The notes under the pieces: generated by a model | The model's input: only the letters and a program-made list of their open reading frames with translations | Database searches by the model: none | What the model was told of the DNA's origin: nothing | Source of the DNA: a virus | Virus record (IMG/VR): IMGVR_UViG_3300030116_004457 | Span: 1-25,473 of that record | Strand: one strand, 5' to 3' | DNA: 25,473 nucleotides | Position numbers and translations under genes: made by a program | Part shown: positions 1 through 8,261 of the stretch, one piece after another | Position numbering within the stretch: the first letter of the stretch is position 1 | Layout of the letters: every line of letters starts with the position of its first letter

Positions 1-292
1 CTTCCATAGTTACTAAATGAACTGCTTTATTTTTGTTTACCTTATGAGTTTGACATACTATTGGTATCTTACCTGTAGTATTAGCAGCCTTTCTAGCTTG
101 ATCTACGGCCTTTAATGTCCTGGAACTAACAACGCTGCCAGCTTTTACTTCACCTGCAAACTTAATTGTTTCTATATCAGGCACATCTCCCGAATGTCTG
201 CCAGTTACTGGTATGCGTTTTGCGTTTACTTTATCTCCACCCAGCTTCTCTCTCCACCATCTCTCCCAGTTTTTCCATGTTGATCTATCCAT
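1..292 (-). CDS. PD-(D/E)XK nuclease-like phage protein, 3' end cut by window edge
   Basis: This frame is open from an ATG at 292 to the left edge, giving 97 codons without a stop. A clear ribosome binding site (GGAGG, 7-nt spacer) precedes the ATG. The protein begins with a Trp-rich stretch (W6, W9, W12, W13), then a GG(D)K...R.PVTG segment, then PDIE (38-41) followed by EVK (48-50). The spacing of D39, E48 and K50 fits the PD-(D/E)XK nuclease core. I know a family of small phage proteins with the layout W..WER..A..LGG.R.P.TG...DV.DIE...EVK, usually left as hypothetical or called endonuclease/resolvase-like. It is the last visible gene of the leftward replication block, next to the helicase loader, so a recombination or Holliday-junction role is plausible. 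The start overlaps the end of the preceding zinc-ribbon gene by 8 nt. The function is inferred. Confidence 0.7.
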   Translation of the reverse strand, partial: MDRSTWKNWERWWREKLGGDKVNAKRIPVTGRHSGDVPDIETIKFAGEVKAGSVVSSRTLKAVDQARKAANTTGKIPIVCQTHKVNKNKAVHLVTME

Positions 293-443
293 TGTTTTTC
301 CTCCATACACTACCGAACCTACCATCCATGCTATTGAATCCCTCTTTCTTCTCGCCGCACTTACACTTGCCAATAGACACAGGGCCATTCGGTGCTGGAA
401 ATATAAATTTATGTATATGTTCTTTCTTTTTATCTTCTGACAT
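285..443 (-). CDS. Small zinc-ribbon-like protein (52 aa)
   Basis: I start this 52-aa gene at the ATG at 443, which has a GGAAGG site about 7 nt upstream. The frame is open further upstream to 488, but that start would overlap the helicase loader more deeply. The start at 443 overlaps the end of the loader by 14 nt. The protein has an early histidine pair (H9, H11), a PNGP turn, then a C.CG knuckle and a following F.S. This resembles short phage and bacterial proteins with an H...PNGP.S.G.C..CG....F.NS pattern, which look like minimal zinc ribbons. The knuckle here is C-x-C rather than the usual C-x2-C. No function is known to me. Its position between the loader and the nuclease-like gene suggests co-expression with replication genes. 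Confidence 0.6.
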   Translation of the reverse strand: MSEDKKKEHIHKFIFPAPNGPVSIGKCKCGEKKEGFNSMDGRFGSVWRKNNG

Positions 444-1233
444 CGTATGCCTTCCACATTGATACGAGTTTACCTTCTGCTTTCTCACCTTGCTTAGACA
501 ATACCCTACTCATCACCCTTTGCCCTACTATGTTTGATAGTGCAGCTTCTGGGTTCTTTGCTTGGTTATCTTTGATGTTTCCTGCTACGAGTGTTGGCAT
601 GAATCTGTCTGATCGGTGTACTATGACCTCTTGAAGAGTTGTTCTTAGGTAATCGTTATTATCCCAAGAAACATACATTTCATCAAGGATTAACATTTCT
701 TTGGTTAGCAAAGCATCTTTAAATTTATGAACATTGTCCATATCTCTCATCCTGTGACCGAAGATTGTGCCAGTCACATACCAAACATCCAGGCCCGCAT
801 TGATAAGTTCGTTGGCTGCCGACTCGCACAAGTGAGTTTTGCCTGTTCCTGTTGGGCCTGTAAGCATAATCAGGTATGGAGTCTTCTTCTGAATCCATCT
901 AGCAACAATGTTCTTTGCGTTTCTACATTGACTCCTGGCTTCAACAGATGTCTGTTTATCAGGGTTGTAGTCTGAAAAGGTGTGTAAGGCTCTGTTTAGA
1001 CCCTCAAAACCAGCAAGATCATATTTTATCTTTGACAAATCTTGAGCCTGATCCTCTTTGCAGTCTGGACACCTAATGTATTTTACATTCTGTTTGTCTA
1101 CCTCTGCTGGTCTAAGCCACAATAAATCGTCACAAGTTCTGCATGAGATCAGTTGTGTACGATCATAGCTTGTCGAATATGTCTTCCCCTGTGGGCTTTC
1201 CCGCTTCAAGTGATCGAAGTTTAGTTTTTCCAT
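430..1233 (-). CDS. DnaC-like AAA+ helicase loader with N-terminal zinc finger
   Basis: This protein of 267 aa probably loads the replicative helicase at the phage origin, in the manner of DnaC, DnaI or phage loaders. It has a four-cysteine zinc finger near the N-terminus (C31, C34, C55, C58). It then has a P-loop GPTGTGKT (126-133), a Walker B MLILDE (180-185) and a sensor-I-like strand ending in asparagine (PTLVAGN, 213-219). The size and the zinc-finger-plus-AAA+ order are typical of phage loaders. The ATG at 1233 has an excellent AAGGAGG site. The first 71 nt overlap the end of the upstream initiator gene, and there is no sensible later start. Adjacent initiator and loader genes are the usual phage arrangement. 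The helicase itself is not in the window and may be host-encoded or lie further left. A related AAA+ role such as IstB/DnaC is the main alternative. Confidence 0.88.
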   Translation of the reverse strand: MEKLNFDHLKRESPQGKTYSTSYDRTQLISCRTCDDLLWLRPAEVDKQNVKYIRCPDCKEDQAQDLSKIKYDLAGFEGLNRALHTFSDYNPDKQTSVEARSQCRNAKNIVARWIQKKTPYLIMLTGPTGTGKTHLCESAANELINAGLDVWYVTGTIFGHRMRDMDNVHKFKDALLTKEMLILDEMYVSWDNNDYLRTTLQEVIVHRSDRFMPTLVAGNIKDNQAKNPEAALSNIVGQRVMSRVLSKQGEKAEGKLVSMWKAYDVRR

Positions 1234-1921
1234 TTCGTTGTTCCTCCTTTTTGCACCAATTTATGAATGCAGTTAATGGTTGTTTGTATTTGTATTTCTT
1301 TTCAACCTCGACTGCTGTAAAAAAAGCCAAAGCTGAATTATGCAGAATGTTATCAGAAAATCTTTTTTCTTGCATATCAATCCAATCATCGTTTAAATCT
1401 AGGCTCTTAATCTTCTCTAGCGTAAGAACCCAATCTTTTCTTTCTTTATATATTTCTTTCTTTTGATTAAGATTTATTATTCTTTTCTTTTTTGTGTTAC
1501 TTTTTTCTTTTCTTGATCCATCGGACATAGATGTCCTGTAGTTTTTATTATTGTTATGTCCATCGGACACCGATGTCCTGTGGTTTAGGTTTAAATCTCC
1601 AGGCAAATGTCCTACGAATTGAATACAATTTTCATCGTGTTCTCGTGAGTTATCGCCAGTAATTATCCGATAGACATTACCAACATATTTACCTTTTGTT
1701 TGAGCCTTAGATATTTGGATAAGATTAAGATCCTGGAGTTGTAGCAGCAATCTTCGTATCTGTCTTTCAACAAGTCCTGTCTTCTTACTTAGAATCTTCT
1801 GACTGGGCCAAGCACAAAGACAACCATCCCTAGCGTAATCAAGTAACACTAACAACAGAAGCCTTTGTCCTGACTTTAATCCGTCTAATCTAAATGCCCA
1901 TCCATGATGAGCAAACGACAT
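1163..1921 (-). CDS. Winged-helix replication initiator (O/DnaD/DnaT-like)
   Basis: The protein has 252 aa. Residues about 10-90 form a winged helix-turn-helix of the type seen in phage replication proteins: a hydrophobic helix, then WPSQ..LS..TGL..RQI.R.L..L..L.LI, and a wing ending in YRI. A polar linker (about 100-165) contains a duplicated RTS(V/M)SDG motif. The C-terminal part (165-230) is helical, with aromatic residues like the helicase-loader-binding domains of DnaD or DnaT-type proteins. The likely role is to bind the origin and recruit the loader encoded next to it. The linker DNA carries palindromic direct repeats (1518-1586), as expected if the origin lies inside the initiator gene. 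The start overlaps the previous stop codon (TAATG) with only a weak AGGT site, so translation is probably coupled. Confidence 0.75.
   Translation of the reverse strand: MSFAHHGWAFRLDGLKSGQRLLLLVLLDYARDGCLCAWPSQKILSKKTGLVERQIRRLLLQLQDLNLIQISKAQTKGKYVGNVYRIITGDNSREHDENCIQFVGHLPGDLNLNHRTSVSDGHNNNKNYRTSMSDGSRKEKSNTKKKRIINLNQKKEIYKERKDWVLTLEKIKSLDLNDDWIDMQEKRFSDNILHNSALAFFTAVEVEKKYKYKQPLTAFINWCKKEEQRNGKTKLRSLEAGKPTGEDIFDKL
1518..1586. repeat. Palindromic direct repeats inside the initiator gene: candidate replication origin iterons
   Basis: Two 27-bp direct repeats lie at 1518-1544 and 1560-1586, exactly 42 bp apart and 24/27 identical. Each contains a dyad of the form GGACA-N4-TGTCC (arms 1523-1527/1532-1536 and 1565-1569/1574-1578). 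In copy 1 the arms extend to six bases. A further TGTCC at 1557-1561 forms another dyad with the GGACA of copy 2, and an extra ATGTCC lies at 1607-1612. They sit in the linker-coding part of the predicted initiator gene, the same place as the iterons of the lambda O gene. The repeats also encode a repeated RTS-SDG peptide, so protein-level duplication is the alternative explanation. Confidence 0.5.
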
Positions 1922-2655
1922 TAGAGCTTACCTGTGGCTGCATTTTCAATGGCTTCTCTACAAGATGAATCTAAGTTTGGTCTAGCCAATACCCAATTTG
2001 CCCAACCAACATCATTCTTAACAACATCTATAAGTTCTTTACCTTTGTATTCAGACCAGGGAGTTCCCTCTTTACCACCAATTACAACTCTCCAAACTCC
2101 ATTCTCATCCTCTTTACATGGTGTAAATGGTGCATCAGGATCGTATTGTCTTTTTGGTTGTTCTTGAATCTGATTAGGTTTCCATTCAGATTGTTGTTGT
2201 GGTTCGTCTGCATATCTTACAACATCATCATCCTGACTAAAGATACCAAAGCTATTACTTGCATACCTTATCCCCAAGACATAGGCTCTCTTGTAAGCCA
2301 TAGCCAATCCTCTTTGCCTGGCACCTTTCATGTTGCCAAGTATCTCTCCATTATCCCAAGTACCAACTCCTGTACCCACAACCTTTCCGTCAGACTCAAC
2401 GATGTCCAAGATGATTGTAATCTTGCAACCTTCACCAAACGGCTCTTCGTTGATTTCTTTTAGTGTTGCGTTCAGTCCAAACTCTTCTGCTAACTTTGCT
2501 GCACCACCTACCCAGAGGAAATCTGATGTTTTGCCCTCAATCTTGCCAAAGTCAACACCTTCTTTCATCTGTTCTTTTAGTTTATTGGATCTTTGTAGTT
2601 TCGTTTCAACTACAAATTCTCCTAAATCTTCTGGATGTATATCTTTATTTGCCAT
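1921..2655 (-). CDS. Probable ssDNA-annealing/recombination protein with ExoX-C-like tail
   Basis: The protein has 244 aa. Residues 25-150 resemble a phage family with the pattern KEG.DFG.I.GK....GGA.KL.E.FGL, then a beta-strand pair with G.GVGTW, then a helix rich in A/K/R (110-127), ending in a F(S/T)QD motif (139-142). I associate that family with phage recombination or ssDNA-binding clusters, possibly Rad52/Erf-related, but the assignment is by pattern memory. After a Q/P-rich linker (150-175), residues about 195-240 (EYKGKELIDVV..D..WANWVL) look like the small ExoX C-terminal domain found on phage recombination proteins. The start has an AGGAGG site. It lies directly upstream of the initiator with a 1-nt overlap, supporting a DNA-metabolism role. 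Confidence 0.55.
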   Translation of the reverse strand: MANKDIHPEDLGEFVVETKLQRSNKLKEQMKEGVDFGKIEGKTSDFLWVGGAAKLAEEFGLNATLKEINEEPFGEGCKITIILDIVESDGKVVGTGVGTWDNGEILGNMKGARQRGLAMAYKRAYVLGIRYASNSFGIFSQDDDVVRYADEPQQQSEWKPNQIQEQPKRQYDPDAPFTPCKEDENGVWRVVIGGKEGTPWSEYKGKELIDVVKNDVGWANWVLARPNLDSSCREAIENAATGKL

Positions 2656-2809
2656 TGTTTACCTCCTTATTTGCATGGTGTAGTGTTCTTGCAACCCCAT
2701 CAACAACGAATTGTCTTACTAAAGCTGATGGTGAATTACCTGTTAGCTTGGCTATTGCTTTTAAATCTTCCCATATTTCTTCTGGGAATAGTATGTGTCT
2801 TCCTATCAT
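2645..2809 (-). CDS. Ribbon-helix-helix DNA-binding protein (54 aa)
   Basis: This short ORF runs from an ATG at 2809 to a TAA at 2647-2645, with a near-perfect AAGGAGG site just upstream. It overlaps the previous gene as ATGA and the next gene by 11 nt. The 54-aa protein starts with a beta strand (RHILFP), then two helices (PEEIWEDLKAIAKLTG and NSPSALVRQFVVDGVARTL). This is the layout of Arc/CopG ribbon-helix-helix proteins: a short polar strand, an E(I/L)W..L..IA helix, an S..ALVR turn and a final helix. Such proteins bind DNA as dimers and commonly act as small regulators. A likely target is its own operon or the repeat region further upstream. That target is inference. Confidence 0.75.
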   Translation of the reverse strand: MIGRHILFPEEIWEDLKAIAKLTGNSPSALVRQFVVDGVARTLHHANKEVNNGK

Positions 2810-3231
2810 AGTTCCTCCTTCTTTGAAACTTTTATTGATGATGTAATTTTTTTAGTTACCTTGTCTATGTAATCTGCTGTTCTTCCTCCTTGTCTATGAA
2901 TTTTATTAACTTCAGTTACACTTACCTTTTCAGGTACAGTTTTTATTTCTGTATGTTTAGGAACAATACATCTGTCTAGTTCCTCAGGCTCAACCCACTC
3001 CCCTATTGCGGCCCGTAATTCATCAGGTTTAATTATTTTAGTTGATCCTCTTTTAATAACCATGTTGTTACCAATTAACTCACTGGCCCAAGTGTTCTCA
3101 GATCGTTCCTCAAACTCAATCTCTATCTCTCTTTCTATTTTTGCTTTATCTTCTTTCATTGATTTCATCATGCTATTGATTGTCTCCAACCTATTAGCAA
3201 GAGTATCTATTTCTTGTCTACTTAGACTCAT
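2806..3231 (-). CDS. Hypothetical protein with N-terminal coiled coil
   Basis: The protein has 141 aa. Residues 5-45 are strongly heptad-like and charged (a long helix rich in E, K and L with S/N spacing). A compact middle follows (48-100), containing VIKRG and KPDEL...GEW, and the tail is basic. I do not recognise the family. It may be a phage accessory protein of the recombination cluster, because it sits between the ribbon-helix-helix gene and other short unknowns and is coupled at both ends (ATGA downstream, TAATG upstream). An AAGAGG site supports the start at 3231. No membrane segment, signal peptide or catalytic motif is visible. Confidence 0.7.
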   Translation of the reverse strand: MSLSRQEIDTLANRLETINSMMKSMKEDKAKIEREIEIEFEERSENTWASELIGNNMVIKRGSTKIIKPDELRAAIGEWVEPEELDRCIVPKHTEIKTVPEKVSVTEVNKIHRQGGRTADYIDKVTKKITSSIKVSKKEEL

Positions 3232-3527
3232 TATTTAACCTCTTTCTTTTTAATTGTTTTTAGTTTTTTTATGTGTTTTTTTACATCTTTATTTAGTTGT
3301 CCACTCCAAAAAGCAAGTCTTTTAAGTTGCTCAATATCATCACGCACAACTAATTTAAATGATGTTTCGGTTTGATCTGTTTGTAGTTCAACCCATACGT
3401 CTTTAAGTTTTAATTCTACCCAATTAGATCCTGGAGTATTCGTAGTATCAAAAATCCTTTTTGTTCGTGTTCCTAATGAATCCCCAAACCTATCCAAAAG
3501 GATTCCTCTGTGGTAGTAGGTACTCAT
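3231..3527 (-). CDS. Hypothetical basic protein (98 aa)
   Basis: I do not recognise this 98-aa protein. It begins YYHRGILLDRFGDSLGTR, has a central beta-rich part (WVELKLKDVWVELQ), and ends in a lysine-rich helix (residues about 78-98). The basic tail could bind nucleic acid. It overlaps the next gene by one nucleotide (TAATG) and the previous one as ATGA, with a GAGGT site, so it is part of a tightly coupled set. Nothing in the sequence allows a function to be named. Confidence 0.65.
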   Translation of the reverse strand: MSTYYHRGILLDRFGDSLGTRTKRIFDTTNTPGSNWVELKLKDVWVELQTDQTETSFKLVVRDDIEQLKRLAFWSGQLNKDVKKHIKKLKTIKKKEVK

Positions 3528-3724
3528 ATCTTAAACCTCAAATCATAAGAATCCAATGAAAGCTCTCCTTCAAATTTATCAGGATTTTTTATTGCCCATA
3601 TCATGTCTTCTGTACTCCCCTTGTAAATACATCTCAAAGGGTGTCCTTCCTTGTGAAAGTAGACTTCCCAATCATCCCTCTCTCCCATACCTAAAGTTTC
3701 TCCAGATATTTGTTTCTTTCCCAT
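3524..3724 (-). CDS. Hypothetical protein (66 aa)
   Basis: This is a 66-aa protein with a GGAGAG site before the ATG at 3724. Its stop overlaps the next start as ATGA, and its own start overlaps the preceding stop. The middle (WEVYFHKEGHPLRCIYKG, residues 19-36) suggests a small beta sheet, followed by an amphipathic helix. I do not recognise it. The coupling to its neighbours and its consistent codon use support a real gene. Confidence 0.6.
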   Translation of the reverse strand: MGKKQISGETLGMGERDDWEVYFHKEGHPLRCIYKGSTEDMIWAIKNPDKFEGELSLDSYDLRFKI

Positions 3725-3942
3725 TATGCTCTCCTGTTCTCGTAGTTGTTTAATTGGATTGAATCTATGTCAGGAGTATCAGGTTTCTCTGGCACTCTTA
3801 ACTTAACATCACATTGATCCAGAAATCTTACAGCTTGTAAGAGTTGAGGAATCATGATGTCATTTGCTGATGAATCTTGAATCTTTTCCATAGCCTGATT
3901 CAAGACATTCAGTATGTATTGTTTTGGTGTAAATGTTAACAT
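3724..3942 (-). CDS. Hypothetical helical protein (72 aa), first gene of the replication block
   Basis: This 72-aa protein is predicted helical in its first half (ILNVLNQAMEKIQ and IPQLLQAVRFLDQ), with a Pro/Asp-rich second half. It is not recognised. It is the first gene after the repeat-and-promoter gap at 3943-4299 and is preceded by an AAGAGGT site. It should therefore be the promoter-proximal gene of the transcript from the promoter at 4024-4053, with a leader of roughly 75 nt. Confidence 0.65.
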   Translation of the reverse strand: MLTFTPKQYILNVLNQAMEKIQDSSANDIMIPQLLQAVRFLDQCDVKLRVPEKPDTPDIDSIQLNNYENRRA

Positions 3943-4023
3943 TGTATTTACCTCTTCTAGTTAGTTGATTGATTGATTGTGTTAGCTTGTGCTGCTCCTC
4001 CAGTTTAAATTGTCTGTATGGTT

Positions 4024-4053
4024 ATATTACATCCATGTCATGTACTGTGTCAA
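4024..4053 (-). promoter_or_regulatory. Sigma70-type promoter for the replication block
   Basis: Read leftwards, there is a perfect TTGACA (4053-4048), an 18-bp spacer and TAATAT (4029-4024, four of six consensus bases). It lies about 80 bp upstream of the first gene of the replication block and just downstream of a terminator, where a promoter is expected. The tandem 15-bp repeats lie immediately upstream of the -35 box. Confidence 0.6.
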
Positions 4054-4070
4054 ATGTTTTTGTAGCTCTA

Positions 4071-4140
4071 GTCATTTGCCATTTTGTCATTTGCCATTTT
4101 GTCATTTGCCATTTTGTCATTTGCCATCTAATCGTTTGCC
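4071..4140. repeat. Tandem 15-bp repeats (four copies plus a degenerate fifth)
   Basis: The unit GTCATTTGCCATTTT occurs at 4071-4085, 4086-4100 and 4101-4115. A fourth copy at 4116-4130 differs in its last bases, and a degenerate 10-bp partial copy (ATCGTTTGCC) follows at 4131-4140. The first three copies are identical. They start 17 bp upstream of the -35 box of the leftward promoter at 4024-4053. Iteron-like binding sites for a replication initiator or a regulator are the likely explanation. A short plus-strand ORF across them only reflects the fact that 15 is a multiple of 3. Confidence 0.85.
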
Positions 4141-4181
4141 TAGATCTACTGGGCCAAAAGCTGATAATTTTCAAAATTTGT

Positions 4182-4207
4182 CCTGATTGATTTCCCTGAT
4201 TGATTTC
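4182..4207. repeat. Tandem 13-bp repeat, two perfect copies
   Basis: CCTGATTGATTTC is found at 4182-4194 and again directly at 4195-4207. It lies in the same non-coding gap as the 15-bp repeats. GATT steps also recur at about 3965-3978. CCAGG at 4207-4211 and CCTGG at 4218-4222 form a small dyad adjoining the second copy. The gap from 3943 to 4299 otherwise contains only the promoter, the 15-bp repeats and the terminator. I see no gene in it. Confidence 0.7.
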
Positions 4208-4248
4208 CAGGCAGAGATCCTGGTCAAATCCCTGAGATTGTCCAGGGC

Positions 4249-4290
4249 AAAAAAATAGGGCAGAATTTTACCTCTGCCCTACCCTTTTTT
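4249..4290 (-). terminator. Rho-independent terminator of the early small-gene block
   Basis: An 8-bp perfect stem (AGGGCAGA at 4257-4264 with TCTGCCCT at 4273-4280, 8-nt loop) is followed, in the leftward direction, by A then seven Ts. It sits directly after the stop codon at 4300, so it should end transcription from the 6861-6889 promoter. The other strand also has a T6 run after ACCC, so it may work weakly in both directions. Confidence 0.88.
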
Positions 4291-4299
4291 AGTTATACT

Positions 4300-4584
4300 C
4301 TAAAAGTATTTAGAATCAATCTGAATGACTTTAAAATCTGATAGGTCTCTATTGTCAAAATTGTCATCAATGCACTTTGTATGAATTGTCCAAGAAACCA
4401 TCATGAGATCTAAATATAAAACAACCTCATCTTTGTTAATTGGTTTTTCACAACTATCACATTGTGAATCTACCTCAACTTTTTTAGGATCAACAAATCT
4501 CCACTCCATAGTGTCATCTGTATTTTCGTCATAGTAGGATAGACCATATCCAACCTTTATATATTTTTCGTTTATTAATTTCAT
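4300..4584 (-). CDS. Small acidic protein with CxxC...HxxC zinc site
   Basis: The protein has 94 aa. A first beta-rich part ends at about residue 38, and then C42-x2-C45 and H68-x2-C71 form a likely zinc-binding site resembling a treble-clef or PARP-finger-like arrangement. The tail is acidic. A strong GGAGGT site precedes the ATG at 4584. It is the last gene before the terminator of the early block. Its function is not recognised. A DNA- or protein-binding accessory role (host takeover or counter-defence) would fit an early phage block, but nothing in the sequence shows it. Confidence 0.7.
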   Translation of the reverse strand: MKLINEKYIKVGYGLSYYDENTDDTMEWRFVDPKKVEVDSQCDSCEKPINKDEVVLYLDLMMVSWTIHTKCIDDNFDNRDLSDFKVIQIDSKYF

Positions 4585-4604
4585 TGTTTACCTCCGTGTA
4601 TAAG

Positions 4605-4628
4605 ACACCTCAAAATTAATCGAGGTGT
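4605..4628 (-). promoter_or_regulatory. Intergenic stem-loop upstream of the 94-aa gene
   Basis: ACACCTC (4605-4611) and GAGGTGT (4622-4628) form a 7-bp perfect stem with a 10-nt AT-rich loop in the gap between two early genes. In the leftward direction it is followed only by CTTAT, so it is not a good intrinsic terminator. It ends about 10 nt before the GGAGGT ribosome binding site of the next gene. It could be an attenuator, an RNA-stabilising element or a regulator of translation. Confidence 0.45.
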
Positions 4629-4651
4629 TTCGGATATTAAACCCTCGTCAG

Positions 4652-5065
4652 TTATACTTTAGTTATTTCCACATCCATTATGGTTTCCATATCATCAAGG
4701 TCGAAAGTTGCCGATTCGCATTCGTCTGAATCAAAATCGTGTTCATCTTCCCCACTATTACAAAGACACATATTAGTTTCCAAAAACTCAAACCATATCT
4801 TTTGTAATTCCTCAAACGAGATTTCTTTCTCGTCAATCCAATCGTTTTTGACATTGTATTTAATGTCATCTTGGTCTGAATAAACCACATCTTGGCACAC
4901 ATTACAGAAAACATAAGAGTCATTAATTCCAATGTCTTCCATATTGACCCAATCAACGAAACCGACATCCTCTGTGTTTAAGTCATATTTAACATATGCA
5001 ATATGTAAAACATCATCATTTCGACAGATTCTGCAAATACTCTTGGATTCTTTACTTTTATTCAT
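4652..5065 (-). CDS. Acidic cysteine-rich protein, putative zinc-binding (137 aa)
   Basis: This is a strongly acidic 137-aa protein. C11-x2-C14 and C54-x2-C57 could make a zinc ribbon whose two knuckles are 40 residues apart. C100-x-C102 and C116 lie in a second acidic region, and a helix at 83-97 separates the halves. An AAAGGAGGT site precedes the start at 5065. I do not recognise a family. The acidity could mean a DNA mimic or a protein-binding inhibitor, but that is speculation. The ribosome-binding leader is nearly identical to the one upstream of the next gene on the right, which suggests duplicated gene units. Confidence 0.72.
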   Translation of the reverse strand: MNKSKESKSICRICRNDDVLHIAYVKYDLNTEDVGFVDWVNMEDIGINDSYVFCNVCQDVVYSDQDDIKYNVKNDWIDEKEISFEELQKIWFEFLETNMCLCNSGEDEHDFDSDECESATFDLDDMETIMDVEITKV

Positions 5066-5080
5066 AATTAACCTCCTTTA

Positions 5081-5281
5081 TTAATTATTATAGTTACAAT
5101 CGTCTTGGTGTAAGTCTGCATAAAAGACATCACAATCACAGTCATCCAATGGGCAAGGAAAATCAGAATGATGAAGTTCTTCTATATCTGATTTCTCCAA
5201 TTCTTCACTTGCCCAACTATCACTGACCATGACATAAACTTTGCCTTTGTATTTCAATGCAGATGGTTTCTCGTTAGTCAT
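5081..5281 (-). CDS. Small acidic cysteine-containing protein (66 aa)
   Basis: The protein has 66 aa. An N-terminal strand pair (YKGKVYVMVSDSW, residues 11-23) leads into an acidic helix. The C-terminal third contains cysteines (C43, C48, C50, C62) and histidines (H37, H38, H58) in an Asp-rich setting. It could bind a metal, but there is no standard CxxC spacing. An AAAGGAGGT site and a 22-bp leader nearly identical to that of the 137-aa gene support the start at 5281. It is not recognised. Confidence 0.65.
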   Translation of the reverse strand: MTNEKPSALKYKGKVYVMVSDSWASEELEKSDIEELHHSDFPCPLDDCDCDVFYADLHQDDCNYNN

Positions 5282-5301
5282 AATTAACCTCCTTTGTTAA
5301 T

Positions 5302-5523
5302 TTATATATGATCGCAAAATTCTCTACGATCATTAGATATGCAATTTTCACACTCTATTGGTTTTTCTTTTTTATCACAATCTTGACACCAAAACATAAA
5401 CCCTCCACCTATTGAAAATGGTCTAACTACATCCCCAAAGTCTAAAGTCTTGTTGCAAATTTCACAGATGTTGCCAAAACATATATCTTCTAAAGTAGTC
5501 AATTCATAATCGTAATCATTCAT
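5302..5523 (-). CDS. Small zinc-ribbon protein with three CxxC knuckles (73 aa)
   Basis: I choose the ATG at 5523 because it has an AAAGGAT site and avoids overlap with the upstream gene. An in-frame ATG at 5553 lies within that gene. The 73-aa protein has CxxC pairs at 20/23, 46/49 and 58/61 plus C70. The first two pairs bracket a glycine-rich beta hairpin (FSIGGGFMFW), as in zinc ribbons, and the last pair with C70 and H72 could hold a second metal. It is not recognised by family. It belongs to the early set of small metal-binding proteins. Confidence 0.7.
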   Translation of the reverse strand: MNDYDYELTTLEDICFGNICEICNKTLDFGDVVRPFSIGGGFMFWCQDCDKKEKPIECENCISNDRREFCDHI

Positions 5524-5527
5524 TTTA

Positions 5528-6100
5528 TTATCCTTTCTTGAATCCATAGTCATTGAATTTAATCTTATAGTTTTCGTTATGGTGTTCCATACCCAAAAGA
5601 CTGTTTATGTGATGGATTACTCTGTCAGAGTTACCTCCAATTTCCCAATTTCGTATTTGTTTTTTTTCAAATCCATCTTTGGGGTCATAATTAATGCCAT
5701 TCTTATAATTGTAGATTGTTCCGACTGAACCATCTTTGAACTCAAATGCCCATTCACACAATATCTTTGCATCATCACTCTCTCCAAAATGTTCTTTGCC
5801 CAACTTTTGGACTAGATACTCATAAGATGTGTATAAATGCCCTTTGTTGCTCGTGCCAATGGCATCCACATTCTCTCCATCTTTTGCCACAATATCATCT
5901 TCGTAATTGTGTGAAATTTCTATTGATGTTCCACTCGTGATAATGTCTGCAAAAAGTCCACTCCAAATCCCATCATCTATTTTTCTTTTTGTTATCTCAT
6001 CCCCATTGTATTCATTAGTTACAAGAAGAGTTCCACTTTTTTTGTCGTAATTTAAAAGTAGTTTATATTTATTTTCTTCGTGAATTAATAATTTATCCAT
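5528..6100 (-). CDS. Hypothetical early protein (190 aa)
   Basis: The protein has 190 aa, with an AGGAGG site before the ATG at 6100. The middle, about residues 89-137, has a YEYLV.KLG...FG.SDDAK...EWAFEF.DG..GTIYNYK.G pattern. I have seen this as a recurrent small module in phage proteins of unknown function: a helix, then a W-containing strand, then DG and YN(W/Y)K. The C-terminus (H163, H164, H173, H174) contains histidine pairs but no recognisable catalytic motif. It lies in the early block among zinc-binding-like small proteins. The function is unknown. Confidence 0.7.
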   Translation of the reverse strand: MDKLLIHEENKYKLLLNYDKKSGTLLVTNEYNGDEITKRKIDDGIWSGLFADIITSGTSIEISHNYEDDIVAKDGENVDAIGTSNKGHLYTSYEYLVQKLGKEHFGESDDAKILCEWAFEFKDGSVGTIYNYKNGINYDPKDGFEKKQIRNWEIGGNSDRVIHHINSLLGMEHHNENYKIKFNDYGFKKG

Positions 6101-6102
6101 GA

Positions 6103-6282
6103 TTATTTAACCTCCTCAAGTCCTACCTCTGTAAGACATCTCAGACAATTTCCAACATTGTCATGATCCCAATCAATTTCCATCCTTTTGTTTGACTGTT
6201 GAAGAATGAAGACTTGAAAAGTAATATTTTCACTCTCACAATCAACACATTTCCACCTTTTATTTGTATATAATTTAGTCAT
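6103..6282 (-). CDS. Zinc-ribbon-like protein (59 aa)
   Basis: This short ORF starts at an ATG whose first base is 6282. It overlaps the stop of the upstream gene by one nucleotide (TAATG) and has an AAGGAGG site about 7 nt upstream. It ends with TAA at 6105-6103, directly before the next gene. The 59-aa protein has C12-x2-C15 and C46-x2-C49 flanking a predicted beta sheet (TFQVFILQQ), the plan of a minimal zinc ribbon. It resembles small phage ribbons with no assigned function. The spacing, ribosome binding site and coupling make it convincing despite its size. Confidence 0.72.
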   Translation of the reverse strand: MTKLYTNKRWKCVDCESENITFQVFILQQSNKRMEIDWDHDNVGNCLRCLTEVGLEEVK

Positions 6283-6743
6283 TATTTTTCCTCCTTAAGA
6301 GATTGGTATAATTCATCGTGTAATGTAAAAGAATTACATTCAATCGTGTAAATTGTTGAAGATATTTTAATATCGTCAACATCTGTTATTTTAGTTCCAT
6401 CGTGGTTAATTGAATCTAATAATTGAGTGTATGAAATTCCTTGTTCTTCGGATTGTTCGTACAAGAAATTATCAATAAATTCTGAATGTTCTTCGTAGAA
6501 TTTTAGAAGTTTAGAATTGTAAATAAGTTCCGTACTCCAATAATCAAAATTAGACCAATTAAAAATAATATCTAATATTTGATTTTTTACCTCTGAGAAA
6601 TCAAAATCTTCTTCCCCTATCCTCATTGAGTGAAATTCATCGTCCATCTCACTTAAGATAAATTCTTTTATCGTATTAGTTTCGTAGTGAATACCATCAA
6701 GTATTTCTACTTTATTATTTTTGTAGTTTAGTGTTGTAGTCAT
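6282..6743 (-). CDS. Hypothetical acidic early protein (153 aa)
   Basis: I place the start at the ATG at 6743 because GGAGGT lies at the right distance from it and the stop of the leader ORF lies two nucleotides upstream. An in-frame ATG at 6755 has no such support. The protein is acidic and largely helical. The segment at about 65-105, with W..ELIY...LLKFYEEH..FID.F, resembles DUF7222-like phage proteins, but I hold that only weakly. A C-terminal beta part follows. It is the first full-length gene of the leftward early transcript. Confidence 0.65.
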   Translation of the reverse strand: MTTTLNYKNNKVEILDGIHYETNTIKEFILSEMDDEFHSMRIGEEDFDFSEVKNQILDIIFNWSNFDYWSTELIYNSKLLKFYEEHSEFIDNFLYEQSEEQGISYTQLLDSINHDGTKITDVDDIKISSTIYTIECNSFTLHDELYQSLKEEK

Positions 6744-6745
6744 GA

Positions 6746-6817
6746 TTACCTCCATGTTAAGTCCAAAGAGATTATTAAATCCTCTTCGGTTGGTTTAATG
6801 ATTGTTTGTATGTCCAT
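6746..6817 (-). CDS. 23-aa leader peptide upstream of the early block
   Basis: A 24-codon frame (start 6817, stop TAA 6748-6746) opens the early transcript. It has a GAGAGGAT site about 7 nt upstream of its ATG. Its last codons contain the GGAGGT ribosome binding site of the next gene, whose ATG lies two nucleotides beyond the TAA. The peptide (MDIQTIIKPTEEDL...) has no codon run typical of amino-acid attenuators. Translational coupling is the likely role. It could also be the remnant of a longer gene. Confidence 0.5.
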   Translation of the reverse strand: MDIQTIIKPTEEDLIISLDLTWR

Positions 6818-6860
6818 TTTTTTATCCTCTCTTTACTTAGTTAATGGATTGTTTAAAACC

Positions 6861-6889
6861 ATATTACAACCATAAATATACAAATGCAA
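6861..6889 (-). promoter_or_regulatory. Leftward early promoter
   Basis: Read leftwards there is TTGCAT (6889-6884), a 17-bp spacer and TAATAT (6866-6861). Four of six bases match in each box and the spacing is ideal. It lies about 45 bp upstream of the leader ORF and is the only good candidate to drive the early block. Its -10 is identical to that of the second leftward promoter at 4024-4053. Confidence 0.6.
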
Positions 6890-7038
6890 TAGGGTAGGGG
6901 ATTATTTTACAAAGAAATCTCAGGATCCACCTGGAATCCAATAGCAAATTTTTTTAAAACGGGGCTAGGAAAGCTTTATAAAAATGGGCCAAAAAATATG
7001 CCTGGAATGAAACCAGGATGTGTTCCTGATACAACACT

Positions 7039-7071
7039 CAGGGTGTCATCAGGGTGTCATCAGGATGTCAT
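7039..7071. repeat. Tandem 11-bp repeat, three copies
   Basis: CAGGGTGTCAT occurs at 7039-7049 and 7050-7060, and CAGGATGTCAT at 7061-7071, directly head to tail. An 11-bp period places equivalent bases on nearly the same face of the helix, which suits cooperative protein binding. A related CAGGATGTG occurs just upstream at 7015-7023. Confidence 0.85.
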
Positions 7072-7092
7072 GGGCTGCAAAAATTATATGAG

Positions 7093-7114
7093 TAGGGGAG
7101 TGATAGGGGAGTGA
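7093..7114. repeat. Tandem 11-bp repeat, two perfect copies
   Basis: TAGGGGAGTGA is present at 7093-7103 and 7104-7114. It shares its period with the neighbouring three-copy repeat but not its sequence. GTAGGG (7092-7097) can pair with CCCTAC (7129-7134), just before a T-rich tract, so this may also belong to a weak rightward terminator. Confidence 0.8.
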
Positions 7115-7136
7115 TTTAAAAAGGTCTACCCTACCG

Positions 7137-7177
7137 ATTTTTAAAAATGTTTTTTTTCTTTTTTTTTATTTTTTCTT
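7137..7177. other. AT palindrome and T-tract
   Basis: ATTTTTAAAAAT (7137-7148) is a perfect 12-bp palindrome. It is followed by 28 bases of which 25 are T (7150-7177). This may be a rightward terminator, an easily melted origin element or a bent-DNA site. The sequence alone does not decide. Confidence 0.5.
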
Positions 7178-7303
7178 GTAACCATCTCGGACTCTTATAA
7201 GGGTTCTCTAAGAGAGGGGAAACTTTATGGGGAAATAATATTGGTGATCTAGTTTTGTAAGTGTTGTGTTATTGGTTAGTAATCTAAAGTTAATCTTATT
7301 TTT

Positions 7304-7331
7304 AATACATATTTATATATTTATATGTATT
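7304..7331. repeat. AT-rich inverted repeat with 9-bp arms
   Basis: AATACATAT (7304-7312) and ATATGTATT (7323-7331) are perfect inverted copies separated by 10 bp of AT-only sequence. A dimeric regulator operator or an origin element is possible. Confidence 0.6.
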
Positions 7332-7616
7332 GTTTGTATGTGTTTAGATTTGCAATAACTGTCGCCGATAGACCGACTGCTATATATAGTACATGTATGA
7401 GGTAGTCAGAGCGTTGAAATACTATTTTTAGATATAGGCCACCCCTTATATATATACCTAAAATCGCTAACTTTTCTAATTATTACAAGCATTGGTATTC
7501 CCGACCCTATACCCCTTGCATAATTCTGGCAGCGGAGCTATCCCCACCAGTGAAAGTAACCATGTAGGTCTTGGTCTTTTTTGGGTGACCTGACTCACCT
7601 ACTCCGTTACTGTGCG

Positions 7617-7644
7617 GTTACATTAAGTAAAATTAGTGTATACT
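7617..7644 (+). promoter_or_regulatory. Candidate rightward (late) promoter
   Basis: GTTACA (7617-7622), a 16-bp spacer and TATACT (7639-7644) resemble a sigma70 promoter. It lies 50 bp upstream of the GTG start of the small terminase gene. A GGTGA-N6-TCACC dyad (7584-7599) and a GTAGGT/ACCTAC pair (7564-7569, 7597-7602) lie just upstream and could be operators. Confidence 0.45.
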
Positions 7645-7694
7645 ATTTTGTAAAATTTGGTAAACCAATACTAGACTATTGCCTAGGAGTTCAT

Positions 7695-8261
7695 GTGACT
7701 TTAAAAAATATGTTAGCTAAAAGTTCGTCTGGAGTCTCAGAAATAGAGAGACGAGTATTAAAGGCAATCCCTGAGTGGAAGAAGTGGACTAGGCAGCTAA
7801 AACAAGTCTATGTACTACTCCCCGTCTTTGGGTCTAGTGACCAAGGTATAGAAGAGATGTGTGATGAGTTTGGCTGGAATAAAAAGAAACTATTTGAAAA
7901 GATAGAAGAAGACCAGACATTTAGATTAAAACTTGCACAATACAGAGATACGGACTCCTACCCTATCTTTCCTGGATCTAAGAAAACATATATTAAGAAG
8001 TCACATTTAGATACTGTGTATGCTCACGAATCAGCAGTTCTTAGTTTTATGCACTTAGAGAGAGCAAAGGCTCAAGGTAGTGCTGGTGTCAACTTTGCAC
8101 TTAAGATGATGGCTAACGGGTATTTAGAACACATGGAGCCTGTTTCTTCTAGGCCAGAGATAAAATACTTTTTAGAAGATGAAAGACAACCTGGCATAGT
8201 GCAAGACAATGGCCATGTACCAGAAGTTGATTACTCAGGAGACGGACTTCCTAACTTATGA
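7695..8261 (+). CDS. Terminase small subunit (probable)
   Basis: I place the start at GTG 7695, which has AGGAG (7685-7689) five bases upstream. The frame is open further upstream to a TTG at 7581, but that has no ribosome binding site and would cover the probable promoter. The resulting protein has 188 aa. A first helical part containing a helix-turn-helix-like segment (IEEMCDEFGWNKKKLFEKI, about 56-74) could bind packaging DNA. A later helical segment (SAVLSFMHLERAKAQG...ALKMMANGYLE, about 113-145) resembles the oligomerising region of small terminases. The assignment rests mainly on position, immediately before the large terminase. The last 20 residues are acidic. Confidence 0.6.
   Translation: MTLKNMLAKSSSGVSEIERRVLKAIPEWKKWTRQLKQVYVLLPVFGSSDQGIEEMCDEFGWNKKKLFEKIEEDQTFRLKLAQYRDTDSYPIFPGSKKTYIKKSHLDTVYAHESAVLSFMHLERAKAQGSAGVNFALKMMANGYLEHMEPVSSRPEIKYFLEDERQPGIVQDNGHVPEVDYSGDGLPNL

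Follow-up and report, generated by a model that had tools for sequence, protein, structure and literature searches.

A 15-bp repeat array upstream of an early phage promoter, and a likely replication origin within the initiator gene

We analysed a 25,473-nt stretch of viral DNA (IMG/VR record IMGVR_UViG_3300030116_004457, positions 1 to 25,473; hereafter the window), in which 15-bp tandem repeats stand just upstream of a predicted promoter of the replication genes. The repeats are truly there, as an earlier note on this sequence had described, but their explanation is ordinary and the origin is placed elsewhere, the likely origin being a lambda-type element at 1430-1590, inside the initiator gene, where the start of replication would fall. 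The array is probably an accessory, fast-changing control region; our leading though tentative reading is that it belongs to a small terminator-spacer-array insert upstream of the promoter (P2), which would insulate P2 and tune it as a protein site rather than act as an origin. The value of these results lies mostly in annotation: for an uncultured group of phages, the likely origin moves from the repeats to a conserved lambda-type element, and a conserved early promoter with a dyad is identified.

The repeat array and promoter P2

The features of the array region and of the operon behind it are as follows.

4066-4140, minus strand: 15-bp direct-repeat array of five units (from the letters, TRF, core counts and resampling)
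4140-4126, minus strand: array unit 1, GGCAAACGATTAGAT, 11/15 against the main unit
4125-4111, 4110-4096 and 4095-4081, minus strand: array units 2-4, GGCAAATGACAAAAT three times, each 15/15
4080-4066, minus strand: array unit 5, GGCAAATGACTAGAG, 12/15 against the main unit
4048-4053, minus strand: P2 -35 box, TTGACA (promoter scan, and conservation in six contigs)
4024-4029, minus strand: P2 -10 box, TAATAT, behind an 18-bp spacer (TAGAAT or TAGACT in relatives)
4018-4036, minus strand: imperfect dyad over the P2 -10 box, ATGGATGTAATATAACCAT (ATGGGTGTAGAATACCCAT in relatives), 7/9 pairs, candidate operator
4182-4208, unstranded: 13-bp tandem duplication (TRF), one copy in contig L002
4256-4281, unstranded: stem resembling an intrinsic terminator, flanked by T-runs on each side, between the upstream early operon and P2
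3724-3942, minus strand: first gene after P2, 72 aa, unknown function (ORF list)
2645-2809, minus strand: 54-aa ribbon-helix-helix (RHH)-like protein, a weak RHH_5 match below the Pfam cut-off
1163-1921, minus strand: O-like replication initiator, HTH_36 above cut-off, PHROG replication initiation proteins
430-1233, minus strand: DnaC-like helicase loader, directly downstream of the initiator gene

The five units run head-to-tail on the minus strand, read from 4140 down to 4066, an extent slightly larger than the 4071-4140 first given; three perfect units and a diverged one had been counted correctly, while the supposed degenerate partial copy turned out to be a full-length diverged unit. The array is far above chance: its TRF score of 114-120 is the top score in the window, and its column score over five units is 68/75, where the highest of 300 Markov resamplings of this gap reached 53. 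For the core GGCAAAYGAY, 0.15 occurrences are expected in the window and five are present, all of them inside the array; every unit (5/5) retains it, the only changes within it being transitions, in contrast to the variable 5-bp linkers. The coordinates bear out the distance reported before, 17 bp between the end of the last repeat core and TTGACA (4053-4048); from there the cores reach ~70 bp further upstream, and the whole array falls between about -130 and -55 relative to the presumed P2 start. The 15-bp spacing puts adjacent sites on nearly opposite faces of the DNA, the period being out of helical phase. The 13-bp direct repeat and the terminator mentioned in the earlier note are likewise present, and since T-runs flank the stem on both sides the terminator is taken to be bidirectional.

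A promoter scan of the window gave 26 sites against 31.5 expected from shuffles, so the scan alone is no evidence for P2; we accepted it as a promoter because it is conserved in relatives, the pattern TTGACA-N18-(TAATAT, TAGAAT or TAGACT) being present in six contigs. Its hexamers match the sigma-70 consensus at 10/12 positions, and its 18-bp spacer lies within the 16-18 bp range. On these grounds we predict that P2 serves the replication operon as a conserved early promoter of the sigma-70 type. The earlier interpretation was thus supported in part: P2 is conserved and precedes the block with the genes for the RHH protein, the initiator and the loader, and the position of the array would suit an upstream regulator site; an origin at the array was not supported. 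As a candidate operator, with a putative function, the dyad over the -10 box is better conserved than the array: L006 and L007 match the window in forming 7/9 pairs, and L003 has a weaker version.

Two side observations concern this operon and its counterpart. The C-terminal tail of the 3724-3942 product, PDTPDIDSIxxxNxENRR, also ends otherwise unrelated small proteins (L022-L031), among which L025 and L026 carry it on a protein related to the 244-aa protein of the window; its last residues overlap the ribosome-binding site of the next gene, and the conservation of PDTPDID looks protein-level. Upstream of the other early operon, a second promoter-like region (~6844-6880, minus strand) has a -10 context, ATGG-TGTAATAT, similar to that of P2, and a -35 box weaker than that of P2, where L004 and L007 have TTGACA.

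Carriers of the insert

Relatives were gathered by a scan with the initiator protein, yielding six other contigs of the same group with initiator identities of 76-91% where fully covered. Among cultured phages there was no nucleotide match to window positions 1-8000, only remote terminase matches; no integrase family was found in five related records, which therefore give no sign of a temperate lifestyle. L002 is the only other contig with the array: it has the same terminator (the stem being common to these two only), spacer and promoter, four units, and one copy of the 13-bp repeat. Over array and promoter it differs from the window by one substitution and one 15-bp unit, as against divergences of mostly 2-10%, and up to 17% in one stretch, in neighbouring genes. 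Such low divergence could reflect either constraint or a recent exchange of the block, and does not decide between them.

Four contigs (L003, L005, L006 and L007; about three independent cases, as L003 and L005 are near-identical at the locus) keep P2, as TTGACAC, an 18-bp spacer and TAGAAT or TAGACT, without array or terminator, P2 standing directly after the stop codon of the preceding gene. L004 has neither P2 nor array at this gene. The array-less records held no exact match to the core, only scattered one-mismatch matches. Exact and relaxed searches of IMG/VR for the array unit returned L002 alone plus two chance matches in coding sequence (L015 and L016), and the insert spacer was found elsewhere only in L002; within the collections searched (IMG/VR and GTDB) the insert thus appears specific to two phages, a number of carriers that makes its conservation hard to test well. 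The GTDB genomes contained six places with two 15-bp-spaced cores, where a rough expectation is under one; two of them (L040 and L041) sit in longer repeats with open frames, and at L039 and L042-L044 no transposase or phage-like shared gene was seen in a scripted listing of ORFs and cores judged by eye. We treat all six as convergence, although six exceeds the expectation, and on this basis also set aside a transposon-end reading of the array.

As a separate matter, the two ends of contig IMGVR_UViG_3300030098_001818 (L001 and L006) carry different versions of the 244-aa protein and initiator region, with 55% and 97.5% identity to the 244-aa protein of the window, which suggests a chimeric assembly or terminal variants.

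The candidate origin within the initiator gene

Three elements in the middle of the initiator gene form the candidate origin.

1517-1544, minus strand: candidate origin iteron, 28 nt, inner dyad GGACATCTATGTCC
1559-1586, minus strand: candidate origin iteron, 28 nt, inner dyad GGACATCGGTGTCC
1434-1511, minus strand: A-rich tract, candidate unwinding element, adjoining the iterons and conserved in aligned relatives

The two 28-nt direct repeats are 42 nt apart and each contains GGACAYNNRTGTCC, with the A-rich tract next to them. All aligned relatives retain this layout, although the dyads are changed in L004, which is more distant. Each of four records contains GGACAYNNRTGTCC in these two places only (expected number in the shuffled window, 0); a fifth record ends inside the initiator gene. 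Unchanged residues are encoded by identical codons at 29/35 positions in the origin stretch vs 83/135 elsewhere (P = 0.017; the limits of the stretch were set by eye).

In lambda and Stx phages the origin consists of iterons and an AT-rich tract within the O gene, and two iterons with the AT-rich region have been reported as the minimal fragment for unwinding (PMC7466680). The stretch 1430-1590 resembles these origins in its O-like initiator with an N-terminal HTH (PF13730, 36.3 bits, cut-off 25), in dyad iterons in the middle of the initiator's own gene, in an AT-rich tract on the loader side and in a DnaC/P-like loader gene downstream; it differs in having two complete iterons, where lambda has four and Stx phages six, and in its unrelated sequence. 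The GC skew followed gene direction and does not locate the origin. A search for the initiator in GTDB genomes found none. Between the RHH and initiator genes lies a 244-aa protein (1921-2655; PHROG 10048, unknown function), 55-99% identical in relatives, for which a recombinase role could only be guessed at from the gene position.

An origin at the array, proposed before, did not survive the comparison that the earlier note had itself named as its refutation, since the repeats are absent at the same place in the four close relatives L003, L005, L006 and L007; moreover, the element inside the initiator gene is the better, lambda-type candidate. That the downstream winged-helix initiator binds the 15-bp units as an iteron-type origin is accordingly very improbable in our view. 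Like plasmid-type iterons, the units are head-to-tail, asymmetric and near replication genes, but the array lies 2.1 kb from the initiator gene and is not conserved with it: the four array-less relatives keep an initiator 88-91% identical where fully covered (L005 and L007 cover the first part only), and conserved iterons with an A-rich tract are available inside that gene.

Explanations of the array and other early-region elements

In our preferred reading, a small non-coding insert (terminator, spacer, 15-bp repeats) has come to lie just upstream of P2 in the window phage and one close relative. Because the relatives lacking the array also lack the terminator, and in them P2 follows a stop codon, the insert would turn a continuous operon with an inner promoter into two terminator-separated units, insulating P2; by this layout the terminator would stop read-through from the upstream early operon and leave P2 the main driver of the replication genes. 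The cores fall in a zone where activators or accessory repressors can bind, and the units would most likely form a cooperative head-to-tail site for a putative DNA-binding protein that tunes P2, with copy number shifting by whole units (five in the window, four in L002). Array, terminator and P2 adjoin, P2 is conserved with or without the insert, and the constancy of the core among varying linkers, together with the single substitution relative to L002, also speaks for regulation. The arrangement is like that of the direct-repeat regulator arrays found upstream of bacterial and phage promoters in that tandem sites of variable copy number end just upstream of a sigma-70 promoter, and unlike it in the restriction to two phages, the putative binder and the 15-bp period; a literature search gave no published match to comparable upstream repeat arrays. 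Against regulation stand that out-of-phase spacing, the two carriers only, a recent 13-bp tandem duplication ~40 bp from the array, which shows slippage in the insert anyway, and the behaviour of the two proteins previously put forward as binders, the RHH protein and the winged-helix initiator, neither of which follows the array among relatives, as judged from sequence. Compared with that of the window, the RHH protein is 96% identical in array-less L006, as against 82% in L002, which has the array. Its N-terminal strand, MIGRHILFPE, does not differ between phages that have the array and phages that lack it, except for one residue after the strand in L004; the initiator keeps its own iterons in array-bearing and array-less phages. 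Repeated sites next to a promoter are thus present, while a cognate regulator that varies with the array was found in neither of the two proteins examined, and neither is likely to be dedicated to binding it. Regulators of the RHH type commonly recognise direct repeats and the promoters of their own genes, and the RHH gene lies inside the P2 operon; nonetheless, an array serving this protein to autoregulate its operon seems improbable, the protein being conserved in array-less phages and the conserved P2 dyad offering it a better candidate site.

The close rival, possible and nearly as likely as the accessory protein-site role, is that replication slippage in a non-coding insert produced the repeats, which would themselves be functionless, so that only P2 and its dyad matter. 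It is favoured by the confinement of the array to two close relatives, by copy numbers differing in whole units, by the second recent tandem duplication (13 bp) in the same insert and by an 11-bp tandem array in the other early intergenic gap whose sequence differs between strains; it fits less well with a core intact in all five units among variable linkers, with the placement exactly upstream of the promoter and with one substitution relative to L002 over array and promoter. We give almost no credence to the repeats being translated, into a peptide of MANDK or WQMTK units, or transcribed as a leader RNA. The unit length of 15 nt is divisible by three and open frames exist, but the array lies upstream of P2 and behind the terminator, and L002 has ATA in place of the MANDK start codon and a TAG stop in the WQMTK frame. 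A broader version of the control-region reading, which we hold unlikely, is that terminator and array are an exchangeable regulatory cassette making an operon-internal early promoter an independently controlled switch for the replication genes, and that related phages exchange hypervariable arrays at set sites between genes, such as the 15-bp units here and the 11-bp units, unlike each other, that the window and L007 have in the second early gap. Should the array indeed regulate P2, it would be an example of phages gaining and losing control regions before replication genes.

The 11-bp arrays, of about three copies each, are at 7038-7071 in the window and 2029-2062 in L007, with differing sequences; the window's unit is present about once in L002. 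The most striking nearby feature, unrelated to the array and perhaps of more consequence, is a conserved element of ~150 nt (7465-7616, minus strand) between the divergent early and late blocks, present in 11 contigs and preceded in most relatives by a promoter-like TTGAC ... TATA motif. It had no match in Rfam and is probably an undescribed phage RNA; a packaging site is a further candidate role. It folds into a closed multi-branch structure of 45 pairs, with 98.6% of cells paired (the reverse complement folds too), and 12 pairs show compensatory changes, a level reached by 0/500 shuffles.
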